Source: Gonatopus flavifemur
Taxonomy: Eukaryota; Arthropoda; Insecta; Hymenoptera; Dryinidae
NCBI GenBank assembly: GCA_018340375.1
Contig: JAFFJZ010000040.1
Location: 1,178,001-1,242,000 of the forward strand
Direction: 5' to 3'
DNA length: 64,000 bases
Shown: positions 3,812 through 53,782 of the stretch, piece by piece
Layout: each line of letters begins with the position of its first letter
How positions within the stretch are numbered: position 1 is the stretch's first letter
Translations under genes and position numbers: made by a program
The notes under the pieces: generated by a model
Told to the model about the DNA's origin: nothing
The model's database searches: none
The model's input: only the letters and a program-made list of their open reading frames with translations

Positions 3812-5065
3812 ATGTCTATGACACATTCGTACCGTTACAAAGGTAGAATGACCAAAGTTCAATACCAATTGATACGTTCTATGAGCGTGCAGAAAAATTG
3901 TGAATTATATCCACCTCATAAATCTGTTTTGGATTCTCAAAAACAGTGTTGTCCTGAAAAGTCAGAAATTTCTGTCACTGAAAGTGGAGTCAAAGTTGGA
4001 CTCTAAGCATTGCTGAATCATACAGCTGGAAGAATATCAATGGTACAATCGAACGTCATTAAAAGTCTTCCTATAAACGAACTTGGTGATTGAAAATTCA
4101 TATGCAAGTGGGGATGCGATGGCACTTCTGGTCGAAGCACGTACAAACGAAAATTCAATGATGGAGACGGCAATGAAACGGATGCCAACATTCTCTTTAT
4201 TTCACTTGTCCCCTTGCAAATGCATGTTAGAGTCAACCCAAACGTAATCATTTGGAAAAATCCACGTCCTTCGTCTTCGAGATTTTGTCGCCCAATTAAA
4301 ATTGAATTTCTGCGCGAAACTGCCGAAGTAACCAGGGCAGAAGTTGATTATGTCGAAGCGCAAGAGAAAAACCTTGTGCCTTTTCAAATTGTGATGGGGG
4401 GCAAAAAAATTACCATCACATTCAACCTTGTCTTGACGATGATTGATGGTAAGGTGTGTAATTCTGTTACGGATACATCGTCAAGTATGCGTTGCTACCT
4501 TTGTAATGCTACGGCTGAAGAATTCAATGATATGGACGATATGTTGCAAAGACCAATTAATACAGATCACTTGCAATTCGGAATATCGTCGCTACATGCT
4601 TGGATCCGTTTTTTTCGATGTTGCTCGCACGTAGCTTACAAATTATGAACTAAAAAATGGAAAGGGAGCGAAGAGGATGAAGAGAGTATTGATAGAAGAA
4701 AGAAAAATATACAACAAGGTTTCCGTGACAGATTAGGGCTTCTGGTTGATCAACCAAAACCAGGATATGGGAGTTCGAATGACAGAAATACAGCTCGAAG
4801 ATTTTTCGAAAATTCTCAAATTTCCGCTCTAATCACGGGAATTGATGAGGAATTGATGAACCGATTCCGTGTTGTATTGCAAGTCATTTCATGTGGTTTC
4901 GAAATTAATATACCAAAGTTTTGCCAATACACTGAAGATACTGCACGAAAACTTGTTGAACTCTATCCGTGGTACTTCATGCCAACAACATTGCATAAAA
5001 TTCTTATCCACGGTCACAGAATTATAGAATCTTCGAGTCACCGCAGTCCTCGTTGCTTCACCTAG
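3812..5065 (+). pseudogene. Decayed Transib (RAG1-like) transposase copy
   Basis: Several plus-strand frames together parallel the complete Transib transposase at 36597-39079. At about 4100-4150 the sequence encodes KWGCDGTSGRSTYK, which carries the first catalytic Asp region. It continues in frame into 4214-4648, which shares IIWKNPRPSS, FCRPIKIEF, the second-Asp motif MIDGKVCN and the CYLC zinc-binding pair. Further pieces at about 4650-5040 match the region after the zinc motif, including YPWYFMPTTLHKILIHG. The upstream piece at 3812-4006 corresponds to the segment before the first Asp. Frameshifts and stops separate these blocks, and the region expected to hold the catalytic Glu is lost after 5040. 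It diverges strongly from the 36.6 kb copy, so it is a different, older lineage. No CACAGTG-type ends were found around it. Confidence 0.75.
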
Positions 5066-24059: not shown

Positions 24060-25426
24060 TCAGAATTCGATACAAAAAAAAAACATTATACCAGGGATCT
24101 CATCACTACAGAAATCAAACATTGCTTTCGGAGTCAATATATGATGATTTTCAGTTCGTTGTAGACTAGCCTTCCTCACGATCCGTTTGATTGTACCTCC
24201 TACACCATCACATGGGCTTTTTCCGTGGGATGTAGCGAAGAAATTCCACTCTGCTCCCAATTCAAAATCAGTTCCGTGATGACATATGTTGATAAAATTT
24301 TTTTTATTTTTGTATTGAGCTGCCGCTCTATCACTGACGTAATGGATCTTCTTGAAGGATGGATAGTTTTGTTCAAGATGATGGATGAATTCCTTTTGAA
24401 ATGAATAAAACGCCACAGTACTGTGAGCTAGACAATCACTAATCACACACAATGTTCTTGCCTCAATCGAACCGTTTTTCTTGAAATAAATAACAAAAGG
24501 ATGTAGAGTTGCTCGATTATTCGTCCAGTGGAATGATTGTACTTCATTTTGTACCATGAGAGTGAAATTTTCTGAAAAATCAACCGATGTGATACATTCT
24601 GTATCATCTTTGGAATTTTCTTCAAGATTCCTCAAGTACTCTGATTGTTTTTTGGAAATGAAATGATGAGACTTCAAGGCAACTAATTGTGCTCCAAAAT
24701 CATTCATGAATTCATCCATTGGTTTGACTGCTGTAATTAAATTGCAACGATCAGTAGACACCCGTTGCTTGAAAGTTATCTCGAATAATGACTCACTTCC
24801 ATTACAGATTTCGGGATCAATCACATCTACTTCTGGGCATTTATCACAAAGAGATAGCATAGAGTCTCCATCGGCATCATTACAAACAATTTTTCTAAGT
24901 AATTCTTGATATGTTAATTTAGTTTGGCACGTTGATAACATTAATTTTAGGTTTTGATGACTAAAGCAAACACACACTGAATGTGTGCCACTTGCACCTA
25001 CTGAAACACAGCTCTTTGGTCGTGATGAAGCGAATAGCGAAAAGCCTATCCTCAAGTGTGGATGATTTTGCTTAAATTTTATATCAATTTCTTTCAGATT
25101 CGAGAGGACCAATCTTTTTCGTCCCTCAAACTTTACACACACTTTACACAATTTTTTTGACCTGGCATCAATCTACTAATTTCATCATCTTGATAAAAAT
25201 TCCGAACTGTATTAGTGATTCCTTCAGTTAATTTCGATCCACTCCTTTTATCCTGTATTTTTGGTAATATGCCATATTTGTCCCGTAATTTTTTTGCGTT
25301 TCTGGCTAGATATCCGCTACAATTGAAGTCCGTCTGTATTTTACGAATTGTCCATTTTTGTTGTAGTAAATTCAAAATTTGATATTTCTCAGCCAATGTA
25401 TCTGCAGATTCAAATTTCTTTTTCAA
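24060..25426 (-). pseudogene. Unclassified insect DDE-type transposase, one frameshift
   Basis: Two minus-strand frames join near 25140. 25426-25133 holds an HTH-like segment (KYQILNLLQQKW) ending at the MPGQKN motif. 25151-24060 continues with KRLVLSNLKEID, GTHSVCVCFSHQNLKLML, VDFSENFTLMVQNEVQSFHW, VSDRAAAQYKNKKNF and FFATSHGKSPCDGVGG. Frames break at a GTGTGTGTAAAG run, consistent with a small indel. The Asp of VSDRAAAQ and acidic residues in VDFSEN and AEWNFFATSHGK are candidates for a DDE triad. I know this signature as a frequent, poorly named protein family in insects and cnidarians and cannot place it in a superfamily with confidence. Otherwise well preserved. Confidence 0.6.
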
Positions 25427-26662: not shown

Positions 26663-27957
26663 TACAGGCTGGTTGAAAAGTTTCTGCGCTTGAAATGAAA
26701 GAATACTGTTTTTGTTACGAAATGTATTTTTTTATTCAATATAATCTCCTAGAAGCTCAATACACTTGTTCCAATGATCTTCCAATAATTTGATCCCATC
26801 CTTATAATGGTTTTCCGGAAGCTCTGCAAAATAACCGTCTACGGCTGCTATGGCCTCTTCATTCGACGAAAAATGCTTTCCACGAAGGAATTGTTTGAGA
26901 TTTCTGAAGAGATAGTAGTCGCTAGGAGCCAAATCTGGCGAATACGGTGGATGTTCAAGCAATTCGTACTTGAGTTCTTTGAATTTAGCCATCGTCAAAA
27001 CACTTTTGTGAGCAGGTGCATTATCTTGATGAAAAATGATTTTTCTCTTCTTTAAACCAGGTCTTTTCTCACGAATTTTTCCATCCAGCTGATCCAAAAG
27101 GCTGCAGTAATATTCGGAGTTGATTGTTTCATCTTTCTGAAGATAATCAATGAACAAAATTCCTTTTGCATCCCAAAAAACTGATGCCATAATCTTCTTT
27201 GCTGATCGTTGTGACTTCACTTGCTTTGGAGTTGAACAACCAGCTTCAGTCCACTGTAAACGTTCTTGTTTCAATTCAGGATCATGGTGGTAGATCCAAG
27301 TCTCATCCATAGTTATGAAACGACACAAGAAGTCGGTTTTATTCTGCTTAAAACGCTCCAAATTACGCTGAGAAATTTGTTTTCGATCCAGTTTTTGTTG
27401 AATTGTTAACGTGTGTGGCACTAACTTTCCAAACAGTTTTTTCATACGTAATTCTTCATGTAAAATATGGAGTACTCGTTCGTCTGAGATGCCTATGGCA
27501 TTAGCAATTTCACGCTTAGTCAAACTTGGATCTTCACTAACCATATTATATACATGCTCAATGATTCCTGCTGTGGTTGCAGTTTTTGGTCGTCCTTCGC
27601 GTGGATGGTCTTCAAGGCTAGTAAGACCACGTTTAAATTCACCAGCCCAAAATTCAACGGTGCGTTTCGAAGGTGATGACTCCTCATACACTTCTAACAA
27701 TTGTTCATAAATTTCCTTTGCTTCTAAACTCTTCAAAACAAAGAATCTAATGACTGCACGATATTCAATTTCTCCCATATTAAGAAAAATCAATGACACG
27801 TCAACTTCAAATGGCTTGTAAACAAAGAATGAATTGACAGAATGACTTGTAACTTTGCATGTGTTCTCAGGACAGATATACCAACTTGAGAAAAAAAAAG
27901 TTAAGAGATAGCAGTGCTATCTCTTGGTGAGCGCAGGAACTTTTCAACCAACCTGTA
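26663..27957 (-). mobile_element. Complete mariner element, 1295 bp
   Basis: TA target duplications flank it at 26661-26662 and 27958-27959. The TIRs are about 29 bp: left TACAGGCTGGTTGAAAAGTT, right TACAGGTTGGTTGAAAAGTT on the other strand, continuing YCTGCGCT. Only two mismatches separate the arms. A single uninterrupted transposase lies between. Size and ends are typical of mariner, and the ends resemble the ACAGGTTGG type of irritans-like elements. I cannot fix the subfamily by eye. Confidence 0.92.
26732..27799 (-). CDS. Mariner transposase (DD34D), apparently intact
   Basis: Cut-and-paste transposase that binds the element TIRs and inserts at TA. The frame is 355 codons from ATG 27799; the second Met at 27778 gives 348 residues, nearer the usual ~345, and is probably the true start. 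The N-terminal paired-like HTH region opens with EYRAVIRFF. It includes LEDHPREGRPKTA, the linker before the catalytic domain. Catalytic residues are all present: TMDETWIYHH, HQDNAPAHKS and YSPDLAPSDYYLF, with 34 residues between the second and third Asp. There are no internal stops or frameshifts. With matching TIRs and TA flanks this copy looks young and may still encode active enzyme. It interrupts the older transposase copy ending at 26660. Confidence 0.93.
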   Translation of the reverse strand: MSLIFLNMGEIEYRAVIRFFVLKSLEAKEIYEQLLEVYEESSPSKRTVEFWAGEFKRGLTSLEDHPREGRPKTATTAGIIEHVYNMVSEDPSLTKREIANAIGISDERVLHILHEELRMKKLFGKLVPHTLTIQQKLDRKQISQRNLERFKQNKTDFLCRFITMDETWIYHHDPELKQERLQWTEAGCSTPKQVKSQRSAKKIMASVFWDAKGILFIDYLQKDETINSEYYCSLLDQLDGKIREKRPGLKKRKIIFHQDNAPAHKSVLTMAKFKELKYELLEHPPYSPDLAPSDYYLFRNLKQFLRGKHFSSNEEAIAAVDGYFAELPENHYKDGIKLLEDHWNKCIELLGDYIE

Positions 27958-33865: not shown

Positions 33866-34500
33866 TTCTATGAGAATTTCCGAAAATGGTCTGGATTGTA
33901 CAATGAGTGAATCCGATATGATCTTGATTCACTGAGATTTCTACAAGAGTTCCCGAAGAGGAACTCGTAATGTACAAAGCTTAACAGATATAGTTTTATT
34001 ACAGATGATTCCACGAGTGTTTTCGGAAGGAAACTCGTAATGTACAAAGATTGACCATATACAATTGGATTACGTATGTTTCTACGAGAGTTTTTCGGAA
34101 CGAAACTCGTAATGTACAATGAATGAAAAACCGAATATGTACTTATTTCAGATGATACTACGAGAGTTTTTGAACAGAAAACTCGTAATGTACAAAGATT
34201 GAACGTATATGATTTGATTATAGATGTTTCTACGAGAGTTTTCCAGAAAGAAACTCGTAATGTACAATGAATGAAAAACCGAATATGTACTTGTTTCAGA
34301 TGATACTACGAGAGTTTGTGAACAGAAAACTCGTAATGTACAAAGATTGAACGTATATAATTTGATTGAAGTTGTTTCTACGAGAGTTTTTCAGAAAGAA
34401 ACTCGTAATGTACAATGGATGAAGAACCGAATATGTACTTATTTCAGATGAAACTACGAGAGTTTTTGAACAGAAAACTCGTAATGTACAAAGATTGGAA
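33865..34500 (+). repeat. Tandem array, ~73 bp unit (148 bp dimer), each with a hairpin
   Basis: ACTCGTAATGTACAA recurs at about 33963, 34032, 34104, 34181, 34252, 34328, 34401 and 34477, spaced 69-77 bases. Odd and even units alternate in flanking sequence, so the higher-order period is about 148. Each unit has CTACGAGAGTTTT facing AAAACTCGTA across a short loop of about 5-9 bases, so it can form a stem of about 10 bp. A diverged ninth unit lies at 33865-33905. Confidence 0.85.
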
Positions 34501-34655
34501 AAACCAAGAAAATTCCCTTGGAGTCGTGTATACAGAGGAGGAGGAAGAATGAACTAATATATTTTTCTTTTCTCTTTTGCTCTTGACTCACCGTGGTGGG
34601 AAAGAAGAGTACACGTTGGGTACTTCTTTCCGAACAAAAAGGCAACGAGGTGACG

Positions 34656-34693
34656 CACAGTGGGGCCAAATGCCAAAAAGCTGGCCAAAACCC
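34656..34693 (+). repeat. Left Transib TIR with RSS-like heptamer
   Basis: Heptamer CACAGTG is identical to the vertebrate V(D)J consensus heptamer. After 22 bases comes CCAAAACCC (34685-34693), matching 7 of 9 positions of the consensus nonamer ACAAAAACC. Confidence 0.85.
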
Positions 34694-35254
34694 CAAAAAT
34701 GAAGTTTGTAGTTGGGGATATTTGACCCTTGGGATAAGTAAGGTGATGTCCCAAGTATTGGAATTCTGATATAAGAAGATCTGATCCCCTCCCCCTGCCC
34801 TTGTGTACCAGTTGCAAAATACCCTCCTTGAAGTATAATCCGCGTGATTGAAAGACAGTAAAATAACAAGCATGTTCAAATAGACGCTGTGTCTCGAAAA
34901 ATGAACCGATTTAACTTTTTCAAATTGGAGTCTATTACTGAAACTATGTAGAATACACTAAAAATTAAGAGAATATCAATTTGATGAGTGGAAAATACTG
35001 ACAGAGCAATGATTGGATGTAATTTCTATATCTATAAATGAGAAAATGTGTTTGGTTTTTGAAGGAATAGTGGAGAATTACGCAAAATTACGTCGTTTAA
35101 CTTATTGGAGGTGGTGGATGGGACTCTTACCTAAACATCAGAAAAAAAACGGCTGCCCATGTCTGCCCCTAAGCAATTCCGCCATGTTTTTGTGCAGGAA
35201 ATCACAAAAAATTAGACGGAGTGATGAAGAGTCCTTAGATCCGTCTGAAACTTG

Positions 35255-35710
35255 ATACGCAGAAGTTTGTGGGGTCGCTGATTATGGATCCGTTGTCTTC
35301 ATTTCGGAATTCAAAATGGCGGATCCAATATGGCGGACGAAAATTGAAAGAAATCATCAGATTTTCTTCAAATTCGTTACCCAGGGGTTTCTGAGGTCGC
35401 TGATTACGAATCCGTTGTTTGAATTTCAAAATTCAAAATAGCGGATCCAATATGGCGGATGAAAATTGAAAAAATCATCGGATTGGCTTCAAACTCGGTA
35501 CCCTGAGGTTTTTAAGGTCGCTGATTCCGAATCCGGTGTCTGAATTCCGGAATTCAGAATGGCGGATCCAGTTTGGCAGAAAAAAATTGAAAAAATCATC
35601 AGATTTCCTTCAAACTCGGTATCCAGGGTTTTGTGGGGTCATTGATTACGAATCAGTTGTCAAATTCCAAGAATCAAAGATAGCGTATCTAATATGGTGG
35701 ACACAAAACT
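35255..35710 (+). repeat. Left internal satellite array of Transib, ~120 bp unit, about 4 units
   Basis: GTCGCTGATTACGAATCC-type blocks occur at about 35272, 35396, 35516 and 35636. Each is followed by a TTCAAAATGGCGGATCCAA block and GAAAATTGAAAAAATCATC. The same unit is present in opposite orientation at the right end of the element. Confidence 0.85.
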
Positions 35711-36596
35711 CAGAATTCAGTAGATTCGCTTTGAATTTTATCTCAACGTTAGTATGTGTTTCATTTCCAGTGTACATTTGCTGCACGAGGAAAACTGTAT
35801 GAGATTGATTACCATTCGTTTTTCTTCTCATCGCGGGCTTAGGGTACACAAAAGCCAGAAATCATTGATATTTAGGAAGATGATGGACCATTGAGAGAAA
35901 AACAGTATTGCTGGAGAATATTCGTAGTGAATTTACTATGAGTTGATGAATTCACTATGGGAAATGACAATAAAACTACCAACATTTAGTATTATTACTA
36001 CGAATTTTTGGTAACTTCAGTGCTAACATTCTTCAGCGATGCTCTTTTTCCCTAAAGTAACCGTCATTTTCCTAAATGTTTATAGATGTCATTCAAGTAT
36101 TGATATCTCTTTTCTTTTCGTGAACTAAATCATGACTCGCGATTTGGTGATCGTTCTTATGTTAACCTATCGTTTCCATGGCAACGTAAATAGTTGGTTG
36201 TAATCGGTCTGATTTCAAATGGTGCTTATCACAATTGTGCAATAGCTGTCACCGAATTCTTACTCTTGCTAGTAGTCGTTACCGTAAACTTTTTTCCGCG
36301 TGCGAGTTTGGAGCTTGGTGAATATTTTTCGTTTTTTAAAATCATTCAATGTTAACATACAATTCCAAATGAGATGGATTCCGCTGCCATAGGTGAGTGT
36401 TTCAACAACCTATATTTTCTTAGTAGTTTAATTTGAACAGTTGACTGCAAAAAAAATTAGCTTAAGAGGGTTGAATCCAACCCAAGAAAATTAGGAAAAT
36501 TTTTAGAAACACATGGGGTTTCTGTAGCGAATTTCATCGAATTCTACAACGTTTGTAGATTTCAAAGATGATTCAATGCCTATGACTCGGAGATAG
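35710..36596 (+). other. Transib 5' region: putative promoter, leader and first exon
   Basis: No long frame. An ATG at 36374 is followed by MDSAAI and a donor-like G|GTGAGT at 36392-36393, which may be a short first exon. A stretch at about 36470-36565 reads as NPRKLGKFLETHGVSVANF, coding-like, but ends in a stop out of phase with the main exon. I could not join these into a clean transcript. Confidence 0.35.
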
Positions 36597-39079
36597 ATGT
36601 ACAATATTTTAAGGAGCAGTCCTCTACCTACGTTGGATGAAAAGTTTACTTTCCTTCAAGGAAAAATCATCGAGATAACGTGTTGTAATAACAAAACTAC
36701 AGAGATCTCTAACCTTTTATCCACTTTTAAATGTGTATTCAAAAAGAGATGGGAATCTTCTCAAAGGACCGAAGAACGATTTCTCAAACATAATGAAGAA
36801 TGGTTAAAACAAGAGGTAGTGTTTTGTACTTTCAGGAATCCCCATTCTGTAACTGTTCACACGCAAGTGGGAAGACCTCTTGTTGAATTCAACGAATGTT
36901 CAGAAAGAACGAAACGTGGGAAAACGGAGAATATCAGAGTAAATACTCCTATCTCAGAGCTGTCTTACGCCACACAAATGTGTTTGAGAGCGTCTGAACA
37001 GATCGAAGCCGCAAAAATTGTAAAGGATGTTACATCTTCTGATCCTGAGCTTGCCAAAATGTATATGAAAGGTTATCAAACTTTCAAGCGAAATGAGCCA
37101 AAGATGTTGAATGATGAAGATGCTCTAGCTCTCCTAGTAGATGCCGAGCTCTCAAAACATCAGTACTGCTTATTGCGTGAAGCTGATCCGCAGAAATTTC
37201 CACCTTATAAAAAAATTCAACTGGCCAAACGCATGTGTTTCCCTAACAAGGAATTTATTCAAATAACAGAAACCTGCGCTGTTGTGCAACTACAAGCACT
37301 TCTTGATCACACAGCTACACGTATTTTAAAGCTACAGAATTCGGTTTTGTCAACTTTATCTGATGAAGAGTTACAAAACCTGGTACTTATTTCCAAATGG
37401 GGGTTTGATGGGAGCTCTGGCCACTCCTCATACAAACAAGCATATCAAAGTTCGGAAGCTAGTGATTCCGTTGTGTTCATTACTTCACTTGTGCCTCTCC
37501 GCCTACACTGCAATTCAAAAATAATTTGGCAGAATCCAAGGCCATCATCAACCAAATTTTGTAGGCCAATCAAAATAGAGTTTGTGAAAGAATCAACTGA
37601 AGTTTCGGTTGCAGAGAAGCTACGGGTTGATAATGGAATAGAAAATCTGAGGGCTACTTCTTTCAGAACTGATGAAAAACATGTTTCAGTGAAACATGAG
37701 ATGATTTTTTCTATGGTGGACGGGAAGGTATGCAATGCCATAACTGAGACAACCTATACCCAGAAATGCTATATATGTGGTGCCACATCTAAGGAATGCA
37801 ACAAAATTGATGATATAGTATCCAGGCCGGTCAAAACCGAAAACCTCCAGTTTGGTTTGTCTTGTCTACACGACTGGATACGATTTTTTGAGGGCCTCCT
37901 GCATTTGTCTTATAAGCTACCTATTCAGAAGTGGCAAGCACGAAGACGAGATAAAGCTTTGGTGGAAGAACGAAAAAAGGTTGTACAGAAAAGTTTTACA
38001 GAAAAATGTGGCCTCATTGTCGATGTTCCTAAGCCAGGGTTTGGGAACTCAAAGGATGGGAATACCGCTAGGCGATTTCCCGCACAACCCGAAGTTTCTG
38101 CCGAAATCACAGGGGTGGATGTCAACCTAATACAACGACTCCATGTAGTATTAGCTACCGTTTCAAGTGGCCATGAAATAGACGTTGAAAAGTTTCGGAG
38201 TTACGCTTTAGACACGGCACGCTACTACGCGACAAAATATCCGTGGTACTCAATGTCACCTACGATGCACAAGTTTTTGATCCACGGACCTGAAATCATT
38301 GCATCTGCTCTTCTACCTATAGGCCAATTGACTGAGGAAGCACAAGAGGCTCGTAACAAAGATTTTAAAAGGTGAAAATGATGTATATCACTTAATAATA
38401 GTCTATATTTGTCACAGTGGACTCGACACTTTGAAGGGGAAAATTTGACTTCTCAAGTACTGCAATCAGTTTGATACATTGCACAATACGTTTTTGACTA
38501 CTAGGCAAACTATATATTTATGGTAACCACGAGAATATATGTCCGCGAAGATTGTTTTGTTCTGGTAAGGAATTCGGGGAATTATGAATATTCATATACT
38601 TTTTTTTATTAATAAGCCACATTGTTCATCCTCTGGAAACATAAATTTATAGACTAGAAAACAATTTTGAGAATCAAGTAAACTTATGAATTAGAGGATT
38701 TATTCAAAACTTTATACTGATGACCCCAAAGTGCAGCTGCTTTTTGTTCTTCCTTGATTTTGCTTGTCATGTTGAGATCAAAAGCTTTAACGGTGTCGAT
38801 GAATACATAATTATATTCAAATATCTTAACAACATTCATTTCCAAAGGTACCGAGAGCATCACTCCAGGAAATGCAGTAGAGAAAAAACGAATGAAGACA
38901 TGTTTAAATGGTTCCTTTTGAGTTCTGATCCAATGTTATCGAGTAAAAGACAGTTGCCCAAGAAAAAACTAAAGTTTCTCCCTAGAGACGTGTTAAGCCT
39001 GATCAAAACTCCGGATATACTTGATAAAGACAACGTAACTTTCCCATTATCTTCCTCTGAGAGTGGAGAAGAAGACTAA
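36597..39079 (+). CDS. Transib transposase (RAG1-core-like), two exons
   Basis: Exons 36597-38371 and 38848-39079, joined by a GT..AG intron that keeps frame (AAAAG|G TAC CGA), give 668 residues from the Met at 36597. RAG1/Transib landmarks occur in order: KWGFDGSSGHSSYKQ with Asp271; IIWQNPRPSSTKFCRPI; MVDGKVCN with Asp375; the zinc pair CYIC near residue 390; KYPWYSMSPTMHKFLIHGPEII; and EEAQEARNKDFKRYR with Glu584. These align with RAG1 Asp600, Asp708, CxxC and Glu962 by motif. The Lys/Arg-rich second exon ends in an acidic SSSESGEED tail. No stops or frameshifts. A TAG lies just before the Met, so extra N-terminal exons are possible. The enzyme would cut at CACAGTG ends by a hairpin-type mechanism, as known for Transib. 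Confidence 0.9.
38372..38847 (+). other. Transposase intron, 476 bp
   Basis: Donor GTGAAAATG, acceptor TTCCAAAG. Splicing joins a split Arg codon and links the catalytic Glu motif directly to the RYREHHSRK segment expected from RAG1/Transib alignment (NKLFRRFRK in RAG1). An unspliced reading would stop at TGA 38373. Confidence 0.85.
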
Positions 39080-39319
39080 TCTGAGTAAAAAAAGTGTGGC
39101 AAAAGTAAAAACCATTACGATTTCAGTTTTTTATATTATTGTATATATTGTGAATGTATATATCTTTCGATTCAACACATTTGGTGTGTTAATATCATTC
39201 GATAATTATATTTATAATGATTCAATGTTGGAAATAATAATAATAATGATCATAATAGGAACAACAAAATGGGCCGTTTAGTTCTTGTTTAATATGACGT
39301 TATGAATGAAGTTTTGATT

Positions 39320-40255
39320 TTTGGCATCCGCCATCCTGAATTTTGGAATTCTGACAACGGATTCGTGATCAGCGATCCCGAAAACCCCTGGGTACCGAGT
39401 TTGAAGGGAATCCGATGATTTTTACAATTTTCGTCCGCTATATTGGGTCCGTTATTTTGAATTTTGAATTTCAGACCGTGGATTCGTAATCAGCGACCAC
39501 AGAAACCCCTGAGTACCGAGTTTGAAGAAAATGCGATGATTTTCTTAATTTTTGTCCACCATATTGGATCCGCCATTCTGAATTCCAAAATTTTGACAAC
39601 GGATTCGTAATTGGTGACCCCAAAAACTCCTGGATGCCGAGTTTGAAGAAAATCCGATGGTCTCCTCGATTTTATTCCACCATATTGGATCCGTCATTTT
39701 GAATTTCGAAATGCAGACAACGGATTTGTAATCAGCGACCCCAAAAATCCCTGGGTATCCAATTTGGAAAGAATCCGATAATTTTTTCAATTTTCGTCCG
39801 CCATATTGGATTTGCCATCCTGAATTTGGGAACTCAGACAGCGGATTCGTAATCAGCGACCCCAAAAACCCCTGATCACCAAATTTGAAAAAAATCCGAT
39901 GATTTTTTCCAATTTTCGTCCTCCATATTGGATCCGCCATTCTAAATTTCGAAATGAGAACAACGGATCCGTAATCAGCGACCCCAAAAACCGTTCGGTA
40001 CCCAATTTGAGGAGAATCCGATGATTTTTAAAATTTTCGTCCGTCATATTGGATTCGCCATTTTGAATTTTGGAACTCAAACAGCAGATTCGTAATCAGC
40101 GACCCCAAAAACCCCTGATCACCAAGTTTGAAGAAAATCCGATGGTTTCTTTCAATTTTCGTCCGCCATATTGGATCCGCCATTTTGAATTTTGAAATTC
40201 TGACAACGGATTCGTAATCAGTGACCCCATAAACTTCCCGAGTACGAAATCGCAA
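39320..40255 (-). repeat. Right internal satellite array of Transib, ~120 bp unit, 8 units, inverted
   Basis: GGATTCGTAATCAGCGACCCC-type blocks occur at about 39362, 39481, 39602, 39722, 39843, 39964, 40085 and 40207, almost exactly 120 bases apart. The orientation is opposite to the left array. The array ends about 20-25 bases from the inner edge of the right TIR. Confidence 0.9.
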
Positions 40256-40275
40256 GCGAATTTGAGAGCCCCTTA

Positions 40276-40313
40276 TAATTTTGTCCAGCTTTTTGGCATT
40301 TGGCCTCACTGTG
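40276..40313 (-). repeat. Right Transib TIR with RSS-like heptamer
   Basis: Read on the minus strand it begins CACAGTG. After 22 bases comes ACAAAATTA, matching 6 of 9 of the RSS nonamer, including the ACAAAA core. Confidence 0.85.
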
Positions 40314-41200
40314 TGACGGTTACTCCTGATGGTCCTCCTGTCTCTCTCTCTCTCTCTCTCTCTCTTTTGGACGAAGATCGAAGACGTGCCGGTTCACGAT
40401 TAAATTTCAACGCGATTTGAATGCCAAAAATGACTTGATTACACTTAGTTTCACTGATTTTATTACAACGGAAAAGAAAAACTGATTCTATTCGCGAATC
40501 TCGGTTGGAAGTATAGACTTATTCTACAAAGTCCCGTTTCACTAAGTTGCAATCGTGACTAAGGCAAAAGGAATGAATTTTTTGAGGAACGTTGCGTTGA
40601 AAAAAAATTATCGAAACATGAATTTCCTACAAAAGACGCCGTGGAACCTTCCAAAGGGACACGCTTTTACGATTTATTGCTAACTCGAAGTATGTAATCG
40701 TCAACTTGGCTTCAATCGTATCCTCGTTTCTACCCTCTTGCGGAGAAGGACGGACTTGTCTTCGCGTATGGAAAATCGGCTGTTCAACAAAACTTTCGCG
40801 TAACGAATCTCCCGATTTTTCATTGTCCGTCCTATTTACGTGTTCTCCATCTGGGTGATGGAACACGCCAGATCCTGGCAAGAGGGGTTTTTCTGCCGAC
40901 TCAACTGCCTGATCAGCAGTGATTAGTCAATTTGGTATTCGGGAAGAGAGAGAGACACGGGCACTTGGGTACCGTGAACAAAGACAGCGAATCCGCGGGC
41001 GTTGGACTTTGGTTCCGCGTTGGTATGTTCCCTCACGGTGCAGCGGTGCCTCGAAAATATGCATCGATGTGGACATCGATGCGAGCTCTGACCTAGATTT
41101 CTTTCTTCCTGCTCAGCGTTTTGTTTGAGCGTACGTTTGTTTCTTACATACTATGAGTCGATATATGTATATATTTGAATATACATATATTTTGAATAAT
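40314..41200. other. Flank of Transib / 5' side of the MULE gene
   Basis: Contains a CT microsatellite (about 40341-40366). No zinc-finger exon that would belong to the MULE transposase was recognised. Confidence 0.4.
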
Positions 41201-48112: not shown

Positions 48113-49659
48113 CTACACCTTCCTCGTATTCCTTTGACTACCAAGATAAACTTTCAATGAATTCCGAGAACGAACTCTGGATAAGGCAACATATAATTGT
48201 CCATGATTGAAACCATCCTTCCGGAGATCTATTCCAATTGCATCAAAAGTTTGACCTTGCGACTTATTGATTGTGATTGCAAAAGCTAATTTTATGGGAA
48301 ATTGTCTTCTAGAAAACGTGAATGGATATTCGTTCTCACAATAGAGTGTAATACGGCTCAGGAAAACTATTTGTCCCTTTTTATCCTTTGTTAAAATCTC
48401 ACATTTGAGCAGATTGTATCCAAGTTCTAGAACTGATAGTCTTGTGCCATTACAAAGGCCTTCACTGATATTGAGATTTCTCATCAGTATCACTACACTA
48501 TTCGCTCTCAAACGTAATCCATGCACTGGTAGAGATGAAGGAGATGAAGTATGTAGATATTCGAGTAAAATAGTTCGTGCGATTTCTTCATTACCACATG
48601 AATCTGGTATCTATAGTATCTATGCTGGTATATATCTTTCACTGTTGATGTCCAACAGTTCAACTACTCGTTGATTGATTTCATCGACATCATCATTCCG
48701 AGCAGACAATATTGCACGTGTCACCGCGTGCTTATATAGTTTTCGCCTGATCAAATCACCGTAAATATCTTCAACAATGTCTGCATTATCAGGAGCTATT
48801 GAAGATTCTGGGATAACTATATCATCATGAATCTTTAAATTGCCATTACCTACGTTCAATACAAATTGTGAAAATTCTGTTTCTTCTGGCAGAGCACGCA
48901 TATTTTGCGCCAGAGAAAATATGTTGAATAATTCCCATGAAGTGCTTTTTTGAATCGAAACATCTATTATTCCAGGTCTAGTGCCACGTACTTTTACTAG
49001 CAAGAGTTGTCTGAAATCACCTCCTCAGATTATTATATTTCTTCCAAATTGTGGATCATTATTCATGATGTCGCGCCATGTACGGTCCATAATTTCCAAA
49101 ACGTATCGAGGACCCATGGGTGCTTCATCTCAAATGAAAACGTCTACAACTCTCAAGTAATTTCCTTCTTTTGATCGAATTTTCATATTTGACGATGAAT
49201 CTGGGGAAAGAGGAACTGGCAATCCAAATGTTTCGTAAACAGTCTCACCATTAGGCAGCAAAGTAGCTGCGATACCAGTGAATGCTATAGCGCAACCATT
49301 TTTGCGTCTAATTTTCAATGAATATGGAAGGGTACTGTAAATGAGGGTTTTCTCTGATCCTTCAGGGCAATCTATGTATAAGCATCTTTGCGAATCATCC
49401 GTCTGTTGTAAATTAGTATCAACCAATTTCAGAACTACATCTACGATTTTTTTTTGTTTTTCATTCAATTGTTCATATTGTTGCACACTCATCTCGTCAA
49501 ACTGTTCAATTTGATTAAATTCTGCATTATCCTCAACTTCTAAGACTTGATCCATACTTGGAAACTGAGATAGACTCCATCCTCCCCTATTAAACATCTC
49601 ACTCACATTCGCATATGCTTGTTTTCCACCCCGGATTGAACCTAAACGTAAAAAAATCT
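48113..49659 (-). pseudogene. Helitron PIF1-like helicase domain, four in-frame stops
   Basis: One minus-strand frame is continuous from 49659 to 48113, interrupted by two TGA and two TAG codons. Motifs in order: CPEGSEKT (Walker A, altered from the usual GSGKT); AIAFTGIAATLLPNGETV; a TGA, then DEAPMGPRYVLE (motif II); GGDFRQLL; SARNDDVDEINQRVVELL; HGLRLRANSVVILMRNLN; and the C-terminal FAITINKSQGQTFDAIGIDL and LYVALSRVRS (motifs V and VI). This is the C-terminal helicase half of a RepHel protein. The first TGA replaces the residue before DEAPM. Its Rep nuclease part is not present upstream; a LINE begins at 49660. Confidence 0.88.
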
Positions 49660-49946
49660 TCGGACGATGGGACTTTGAAATTTTCCCATAACTGTTCCAG
49701 CCTCCCTGTGGATACCTGTCCTTAATATGCTTTCTATCAATCCCTGGTGGTATCTGCTTCCTTCACGTGGTGGGGAGGATGAGTACCTCAGAGTTGGATC
49801 ATTTTTTTGAGTGGAATAAACTACCCAAGAGAAAGAATACAAACTGGGAGAAACGAAATCATCCTGATGCCAGAAACATCGGCAAAAACGGAAGGAAAGC
49901 GAAGGAAAACCACCTTCCTTGACATGTTTCAATACTTCCCGAGGAG

Positions 49947-51211
49947 ATGAAACCTTTTCCGAACCTGGAATATTATACTCGTGAAACAGAAACAAACGAA
50001 CAAATTAATGAGTACATGATGGCGCTTTCTCGGGTAAAATATTCCGGAGGTAAACTACTCTCCCGTTCGGATCTCCGGGTGGGGGCTGCTCGGGAAAGCT
50101 TCATCAGCGAAGAACGGAAACCGAAGAATAGGATAGGGAAAAGAAACAACATTCTTCGAGTCGGAGCGTGGAATGTTAGATCACTGAGGCAAGCGGGAAA
50201 TTAGAGAATTTGGGATTAGAAATGAATAGGTTGAATATAGACGTAATGGGGATTAGCGGAATGAGATGGCCACAGAAGGGCGATTTCTGGAGTGAGGATT
50301 ATGGAATAATTCATACAGGATCAAAGAATGGTCAAGCAGGTGTAAGAATTGTAATGCATGAAAGAGTAGGAAATAGAATAGAAAATTATTTGCAACATAA
50401 TGAACGTGTGATGATGGTTAGAATCAGAACAAAACCGGTAGACACAGTCATAGTCCAAGTATTCATGCCCACATCTGCATATTCGGAGGAAGATATTGAA
50501 AAAATGTACGAAGAAATAGAAGGAGTGATAGAATATGTGAAGGGAGAAGAGAATTTGATAGTGATGGGTGATTGGAATGCGGTAGTAGGACAAGGGGAAG
50601 AGGGCAACGTAATAGGAGATTTTGCGTTAGGGAGGAGGAACGATAAAGGACAACGTTCAGTCAAATTTTGTGAAAATCATGAGATGGTTATCACAAACAC
50701 TTTATTTGCAAATCATCCAAGAAGAATCTACACTTGGAAAATGCCAGGAGATACAGCGAGATACCAAATTGATTACATCTTAGTCAAACAAAGATTCAGA
50801 AACCAAGTCAAAAACTGTAAAACTTATCCCAGTGCAGATATAGATAGTGATCATAATATGTTGATGATGAAATGTTCTCTGAAATTCGAATCTCTGGGGA
50901 AGAAAAGGAAAATGCAGAAAAGATGGAATTTGAAGAACCTCAAGCAAAAACAAACACATGAGGCATTCGAGAAAATGTTGGATGAGAAATTGGGAGATCA
51001 AAAAGAGAAAGACTGGGGAATAGAGAGGAGATGGACAAAGATGAAGGGGAATATAAGAGAATGCGCGGATAAGATTTTGAAGAATAATGGGGTAGAACCT
51101 AAAAACCCATGGATAACGGGAGAAATTCTAGAATTGATAAATGAAAAGAGAAAGTACAGGAATAATGATAGCCAAGAAAGCCAGCAACGATACGGATCAT
51201 CGAGGAATTAA
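49947..51211 (+). pseudogene. LINE endonuclease domain (APE type), frameshifted
   Basis: The ATG at 49947 opens a leader ending in LRVGAWNVRSLRQAG. A one-base loss near 50200 then shifts frame into 50210-51211. The rest of the AP-endonuclease fold follows: NIDVMGISGMRW, NLIVMGDWNAVVG, RIYTWKMPGDTARYQIDYIL and DIDSDHNMLMM. Apart from the shift the catalytic motifs (N, E-equivalent, D-x-N, SDH) are well kept. The clade (RTE-like) is judged from motif spacing and the WNVRSL and GISGMRW style. The domain nicks target DNA to prime reverse transcription. Confidence 0.85.
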
Positions 51212-51214
51212 ATA

Positions 51215-51887
51215 ATAAGAGAATCAAGGGAAGCAAAAGAACAGTGGTCAGAAGAGGAATGTCAGGAAATAGAAAAAAGATTGCATTTAGGAAGGATGGA
51301 TGTAGCATATAGGATGATTATAAGATCTTTCGGACAAATGAAATCTAGAAGCGATAAGATTAGAAACCCTCTAGGACGACAATTGATAAGAACGGAAGAG
51401 GAAATAGAACAGTGGATCAATCATTTGGAAGACTTGTATAAAGGAAACGATGATATAGCACTTTTAGAGAAGGAGGAGGATGTAGATGAGGAAGAATTGG
51501 GAGAGTCGATATTGAGATCAGAATTCGACAAGGCTTTGGAAGAATTGAAAAATAATAAAGCGCCAGGCATAGATGGCATAAGTGCGGACCTTATAAAAGC
51601 CTCCAGTGAAGGAACTCGTGACGCACTGTTCGAATTGATTGGAGATATGTACGAAAAAAGAGAAGTACCGGAAGATTTCCAGAAGAATAAAATTGTCGCT
51701 ATCCCCAAGAAACAAGGGGCAGACAAATGCGAGAACTACAGAACGATCAGTTTAACTTCACATGCTTCGAAAATACTGACAAGAATTATATACAGGAGGA
51801 TGGAAAATAGAATAGAGAGTAGATTGGCAGAAGATCAGTTTGGTTTCAGAAAAAATAGGGGAAAGCGAGAAGCAATTTTAGCACTTG
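51215..51887 (+). pseudogene. LINE reverse transcriptase, N-terminal half only
   Basis: It follows the endonuclease after another frame break near 51205. It reads ALEELKNNKAPGIDGISADL, IPKKQGADKCENYRTISL, ASKILTRIIYRRM and LAEDQFGFRKNRG, the standard RT fingers region. It is then cut at about 51887, before the catalytic YxDD. The sequence beyond belongs to the minus-strand Helitron. Confidence 0.85.
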
Positions 51888-53317
51888 ATCTCCATTGGAT
51901 CTTGATAATGTTGAACCATGTTCCGCGCGGACCCTATATATGATGAAGGTGATATAACAATTTCACCTAAACGAGCATTATGATTATTTTCTATAGTTTC
52001 CAAATGATCTTGTAAACCCGTGTAATTATCAACACGAAGTTTTTTTTGGTTTTCCAATAAGTAATTCATTCTATCTCTTCCAATTTCAACGTAACTATCC
52101 ACAAGCCATTGCTGAAACAAATGCCGTCCCATAATGATGACGTTGAATTCATTACGTACTGCTATTCGATACCTTGTATGAGCGCATCTCGTAATACGTT
52201 TATTTTCATTTCTTAGACATGAATTACGATTCCATCCTCGAGTACCATAAGGATAAAATAATGGGTAGTTCTACATTCAGGTCCATAACACTCACAGTCT
52301 GTAATTCTTTTGTATTTTTATCACGTATCACAACATAAAATTCTGGTATTTCTCCATTGGCTGCGGTAGAAAGTACTGCTGCAACTTCATTACACCTTTG
52401 AAAATTATAACGGTGGCGATCTACACCGGGTTTCAAAGTGAAAATTAACTGAAGTTCATTAGGAATATCTTCCCCTGATCCATTAACTCGCTCTTGTTGG
52501 AGTTTTGATTCCTCACCCATCATCTCAAAAGATTTTGCGAAAATATTATGTACCCTCATCATATTATCCAACCTTAACAGAACGTTACAATCCGATCACG
52601 ATTCAATCGATGTTGGGTCGCTTCATTGACATCCACAATGAAAAGCTGACCATAGCTTGGTGGTTCATTCGGGAGGGGATGAATAGATTCATTTACCTGA
52701 TAATATATTTGGCCTTGAATTTTGAAGCAATATGGAGCACGACGGAACCCCGATAAACCAACTAAATTCGCATTGAATGATGCAAGAGAAAAAGCACTAT
52801 TAGAACGTCGAATCCGTTCATTAAACAGATTAGACTGTGAGTTAGAACCATCGAATAACGCCCGGAGCTCTGCTGGTGCTCCAAGTAAACTTTCTGAGTA
52901 TACATTTCCATGATCACAACGATCATTGGATGAGTTGGGGGAATTAGATATTTTTTCCGCTTGGAAATGTTTAGCGCCACAATGAATACAGGAAATATTC
53001 ATTTCTCCAATATAATCTTCATGTGTATTATTAATTTCATGGATCAGATTGGAATTTTGCATGATACTTCTTTGACGCAACCACCATCGTTCTTGACATT
53101 GTCTATGAACATTACGCGAAGCCCCATTGGTCTGTTCATCTTCAATATAGTTCACAGATATACTTCCTGATAGCACAGAATCAACACCAATATTTCTAGC
53201 AGCTCTCTCACGTTCGCGATAACGACGTTGATTCTCAGCATGTCTTTCCCGCCTGAGGCGCTGGAAGTTGGCTTCGTCCTCTGGTGTACGTTGAATCTTC
53301 CTACGAGGTGTGATCAA
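51888..53317 (-). pseudogene. Helitron RepHel N-terminal region, several frameshifts
   Basis: From ATG 53317 a basic start (RRKIQRTPEDEANFQRLRRE) is followed by ISCIHCGAKHFQAEK, a Cys-rich motif, then FKIQGQIYYQVNESIHPLP. Frames shift near 52574 and 52240 and continue with MMRVHNIFAKSFEMM, NELQLIFTLKPGVD, PYGTRGWN and MGRHLFQQWLVDSYVEIGRD, ending at SYIGSARNMVQHYQD. This is the Helitron-like N-terminal domain that precedes the Rep HUH nuclease. The HUH and two-Tyr part is missing, replaced by the LINE. The two Helitron parts share strand and order, so they are halves of one old element. Confidence 0.85.
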
Positions 53318-53487
53318 TTCCGGGGAATCCCAATGAAATTGTAATTTTCCAAAACTCTCAATAAATTTTATGGATCAAAAATTGACTGAAAAAACTTTCA
53401 TTAGTCCCAAATCAACACTCACAGTTTGATAACAATTTGGAAATCTTTTGGTAATCATCAACATCCATTCGATGCGAAAGCAATCAT

Positions 53488-53782
<295 letters not shown>

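Follow-up and report, generated by a model that had tools for sequence, protein, structure and literature searches.

The locus raises the question of whether it holds a complete Transib transposon and, if it does, whether that copy is still fit to move. A sequence-only reading of the window, by which we mean the whole 64,000-nucleotide stretch of Gonatopus flavifemur DNA that was analysed, had proposed a complete element with everything needed for mobility intact. The element was delimited to positions 34656–40313 (5,658 bp) by a pair of 35-bp terminal inverted repeats, the left at 34656–34690 (+ strand, beginning with CACAGTG) and the right at 40279–40313 (− strand), which are identical at 33 of 35 positions once one of them is inverted. 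Immediately outside these repeats, the sequence TGACG is read directly in the window at 34651–34655 and again at 40314–40318 (neither assigned to a strand). The inverted CACAGTG termini and identical TGACG flanks that had been reported were therefore both found. A crude count that assumes equal base frequencies gives an expectation of approximately 1e-8 for such a 33/35 inverted pair in 64 kb, so chance identity of the repeats, which would have counted against the proposal, does not account for them. The heptamer alone would be insufficient, as CACAGTG occurs eight times in the window versus 4.95 expected and at least eight times in 13 of 100 shuffles. The ends were judged to be real because the 35-bp match and the flanking TGACG combine, where the duplication is support that is independent of the repeat match. 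Both features are of the Transib type: the repeats start with a heptamer like that of a recombination signal sequence (RSS), and the perfect duplication has the 5-bp length described as typical of Transibs in the available text of PMC4411706.

The satellite-like array at 33962–34505, built of 76/148-bp units, ends approximately 150 bp to the left of the insertion. A blastn search of the element against the rest of the window (threshold 1e-3) found no further match. An RSS-like nonamer separated from the heptamer by 12 or 23 bp was also considered and rejected, using ACAAAAACC, which we take to be the nonamer consensus. The best matches were 7/9 at spacings of 10, 21 and 22 at the left end and 10 at the right end, and mononucleotide shuffles did equally well in 12.5% and 13.5% of cases, so these scores are no better than chance.

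Between the ends, the transposase gene is predicted to comprise a main coding exon at 36597–38371 (+), which carries D271, D375, C391, C394, H558, H563 and E584, a 476-bp GT..AG intron at 38372–38847 (+) and a last coding exon at 38848–39079 (+) that terminates at a stop codon. The splicing is predicted from continuity with relatives, and translation of the two joined exons reproduced the proposed frame of 668 residues with no internal stops. An alternative 3' acceptor at 38785, which would give 689 residues, was rejected, since both HzTransib and the relatives continue at 38848. The best match to a solved structure is HzTransib from Helicoverpa zea (PDB 6pqn and others; E = 6.3e-125, 420.9 bits), which shares the same RAG1-like core over residues 171–634 of the query. 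The query residues D271, D375 and E584 align to positions 109, 208 and 419 of the HzTransib chain, each 17 below the published triad of D126, D225 and E436 (PMC6941560, from the available text). This constant offset places the two proteins in the same DDE register, which establishes the assignment of Asp271, Asp375 and Glu584 as the triad of a RAG1-like transposase, as had been proposed. E581, which by eye would fit as well, was rejected as the catalytic glutamate, since the published E436 lands on E584.

A search of a large protein set, in which scoring was confined to the 7,991 candidates with the most words in common, returned 592 related proteins at E ≤ 1e-3, and the best 120 of these 592 were used for all counts of relatives given here. 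Named matches among the best 120 are insects, including Sitophilus, Macrosiphum, Amyelois, Rhagoletis and Temnothorax. The top 15 matches by score have 54–58% identity with 96–100% coverage and the 16th has 56% identity with 97% coverage; the closest near-full-length protein listed among the best 120 of 592 has 58% identity at 97% coverage, and shorter matches reach 61% over 84% (P0017) and 63% over 58% (P0084). Two alignments were made from relatives hand-picked for spread (A1 with 21 and A2 with 49 of the 120). The catalytic residues are retained almost throughout the best 120 of 592, with D271 kept in 119, D375 in 116 and E584 in 119; at the neighbouring glutamates, E581 is kept in 108 and E580 in all 120. 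The zinc ligands are equally stable in this set (C391 and C394 in 120, H558 and H563 in 119), so the pair of cysteines noted earlier in the CYIC motif is kept in 120/120. Searches for relatives in viral contigs and in prokaryotic genomes gave 55 and 34 pattern matches, respectively, none of which was confirmed, in collections that may omit records near the genome of the window.

Matches to RAG1 itself are far weaker. Amphioxus RAG1L (6b40) matched the query with E = 9.5e-4, while RAG1 chains, including vertebrate RAG1, gave values from 5.3e-3 to 1.4e-2. The Pfam RAG1 model scored 19.7 bits, below its cut-off of 25, and was also below cut-off for all four relatives tested. These values bear on whether the element could instead be a RAG1L-RAG2L (ProtoRAG-like) transposon, a type with which it shares a RAG1-like core, CACAGTG ends and a 5-bp duplication. 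A member of that group should be closer to RAG1L than to Transib, but the opposite was found. The list of open reading frames contains none above 130 codons that lies wholly within the element outside the transposase and the repeat arrays described below, and among these frames no RAG2-like partner gene is apparent. We consider this assignment to have a negligible probability. On these alignments, the element is a well-preserved, full-length insect Transib and a fresh member of a known superfamily, and the earlier claim of structural completeness is upheld in that the ends, the duplication and a transposase frame were all found.

A mostly open frame would also be expected if the transposase had been kept by the host as a domesticated gene. 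This is very improbable, because the inverted repeats and the duplication still give the locus the form of a transposon, its protein is interrupted by a stop at the N-terminus, and no close ortholog exists among the best 120 of 592 relatives, for which the identities and coverages given above are the highest.

The interruption is an in-frame TAG at 36594–36596 (+), located by a window search with relatives, which falls within an N-terminal motif and directly precedes the ATG of the 668-residue frame. The local reading is TRR*MYNILRSS, compared with TRRELYNLLRSS in P0005. Protein records cannot themselves show a stop, so the argument rests on aligned coding sequence upstream of the TAG. In the set of the best 120 of 592, 66 relatives continue beyond this column by three residues or more and 54 do not. 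The residue at the column is not invariant (E in 34/66, eleven other residues in 32/66), and ahead of it R stands two columns before the TAG in 58/66, with T or S in the column before that in 52/66. When the window was searched with seven of the 120 relatives, P0003, P0020 and P0028 aligned from 36582, across the TAG, and the other four aligned from 36624 or later. P0003, an uncharacterised Transib-like protein of Sitophilus oryzae (LOC115890777, 57% identity), is collinear with the present protein including the N-terminal region, and in uncharacterised insect proteins of this kind the motif is uninterrupted. Further upstream, a candidate first coding exon, MDSAAI (36374–36392, +, donor GTGAGT), weakly resembles the N-termini of P0003 and P0028; spliced to one of two possible acceptors, before 36559 or before 36568, it would read in frame into the sequence that precedes the stop.

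Substitutions elsewhere in the protein accompany this stop. In columns where at least 97% of relatives have one residue, 4/83 are altered (G134E, S387Y, N486K and F495P), whereas uncharacterised insect Transib-like proteins such as P0003 keep G134, S387, N486 and F495. N486 and F495 are constant in 120/120 of the best 120 of 592 relatives and are also N and F in HzTransib, and position 387 is Y in two of these relatives and F in one. At least four such changes were found in 4/120 relatives, and in three of the 38 that are comparably isolated. The branch leading to the transposase is of ordinary length (0.56 versus a clade median of 0.61 across 39 tips), so any loss of constraint would be recent and would have followed normal constraint, with no sign of long decay. 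The earlier statement that everything needed for mobility is intact therefore does not hold, as the TAG cuts the N-terminal motif and four near-invariant residues are altered.

The stop could nevertheless be harmless if the native start is the ATG at 36597, in which case the TAG would lie in a leader, the 668-residue protein would be complete and the copy would be fully active. A downstream start may indeed be native, since the predicted starts of 54/120 relatives lie beyond the TAG column, with 3/120 exactly at this ATG and 20/120 four residues downstream of it, although these starts are predictions that often come from short contigs. The open 668-residue frame, the perfect duplication, the near-identical repeats and the ordinary branch length all fit with an active copy, and, as judged from the offset in numbering, the N-terminal ~146 residues of the present protein seem to have no counterpart in HzTransib. 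The purified HzTransib enzyme cleaves DNA (PMC6941560, available text), so the interruption ahead of residue 1 may have little effect: activity need not be lost, and the enzyme might function in shortened form. However, the MTRR before the TAG still resembles the motif of the relatives, which would be unexpected in a non-coding leader, and N486K and F495P are absent from all of the best 120 of 592 relatives. We therefore regard full activity as a tentative and rather unlikely reading. An error of assembly or sequencing could also have created the TAG in an otherwise intact full-length protein, given that it is a single codon with an open frame on either side, but the two changes unseen in relatives sit elsewhere in the protein, and we think such an error highly unlikely.

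Instead, the element is likely to be a young cut-and-paste Transib that was disabled recently, or that at best encodes an N-terminally shortened enzyme starting at the ATG after the stop. The position of the stop, at a conserved protein start, suggests that this copy may have just ceased working. Its RAG1-like transposase would have bound and paired the 35-bp ends and nicked the DNA at the CACAGTG heptamer, leaving hairpins on the flanking DNA, as is reported for HzTransib cleavage (PMC6941560, available text). Insertion of the excised ends elsewhere, with a stagger of 5 bp, would have left TGACG on both sides; this chemistry of cleavage and joining is carried over from HzTransib and RAG. A working element was probably the source of the copy, which retained a near-intact frame and would later have gained the stop in the N-terminal motif and a few changes at near-invariant sites. 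Since the ends are well preserved, it could still move in trans through an enzyme made elsewhere.

An unusual feature of the element is a pair of tandem arrays with a 121-bp unit that lie inside its ends in opposite orientations. Tandem repeat analysis located 3.6 copies in the left array (35265–35701, +) and 7.5 copies in the right array (39321–40234, +), and a single unit of the right array aligns to the left one over four segments with 72–89% identity. Two words from the terminal inverted repeats were sought within the arrays, allowing up to two mismatches, and neither was present, so TIR-like words within the units were rejected and any role of the arrays would differ from that of extra transposase sites, at least for the two words tested. 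Exact copies of a 21-base core of the inverted repeat and of a 20-base array word were also sought in viral contigs, with no hits. Titles and abstract openings of the papers listed by literature searches contain no mention of subterminal arrays in Transib, and nothing on them was found in the available part of PMC9659126; we make no claim of a first report. In principle, the element could represent a Transib subfamily in which inverted 121-bp arrays are a structural part and mobility depends on an N-shortened transposase started after the stop. We consider this unlikely; if it were true, the arrays might, for example, act as spacers, be targeted for silencing or seed satellite DNA.

Mobile elements are densely packed in the window. 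Another Transib core, of a different lineage, lies at 3839–5035 (+), where in-frame stops immediately ahead of 4094 and at 4646–4648 break it; among seven relatives, its closest are an Osmia protein (57% over 400 residues) and a Trachymyrmex protein (51%). A search for its ends from the window start to 9500 gave no convincing pair, the best having 15 mismatches in 30 positions. Mariner, MULE and Helitron domains pass Pfam cut-offs in the window, including the helix-turn-helix and transposase domains of a stop-free, mariner-like transposase frame of 394 codons at 26732–27916 (−). Matches to DDE_3, which we take to indicate Tc1-like elements, were below cut-off, and a protein that carries DUF1759 and has an integrase zinc domain close by is presumably BEL/Pao-like. 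A search with the DUF1759 protein gave 20 hits of 30–45% identity, and of the 11 that are named, nine are from ants. Helitron-like frames with a PIF1 helicase and a Helitron_like_N domain occupy 48113–53374 (−) and are adjoined by a 290-bp ATCGTC microsatellite (53492–53781). Between these frames, on the opposite strand, is a stretch at 50180–51943 with an endonuclease domain above its Pfam cut-off and a reverse transcriptase narrowly below. For a 370-codon open frame at 24060–25172 (−), Pfam gave no match at a threshold of E 0.01.

Transib transposases are related by descent to RAG1, the recombinase of adaptive immunity. This common ancestry is supported in the available texts of PMC7204232 and PMC4411706, which treat it as an open question whether Transib or the RAG1L-RAG2L transposon is the older, and the accepted picture is unchanged by the element described here. 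Compared by length, it is larger than Drosophila Transib1 (5,658 versus 3,030 bp), an element that has spread recently in nature (PMC12230796, available text). As a full-length copy with clean ends, it adds a divergent lineage, 58% identical to its nearest near-full-length relative among the best 120 of 592, for tracing the Transib family, and its N-terminal interruption provides a natural experiment on the need for the ~146 residues that are apparently absent from HzTransib.
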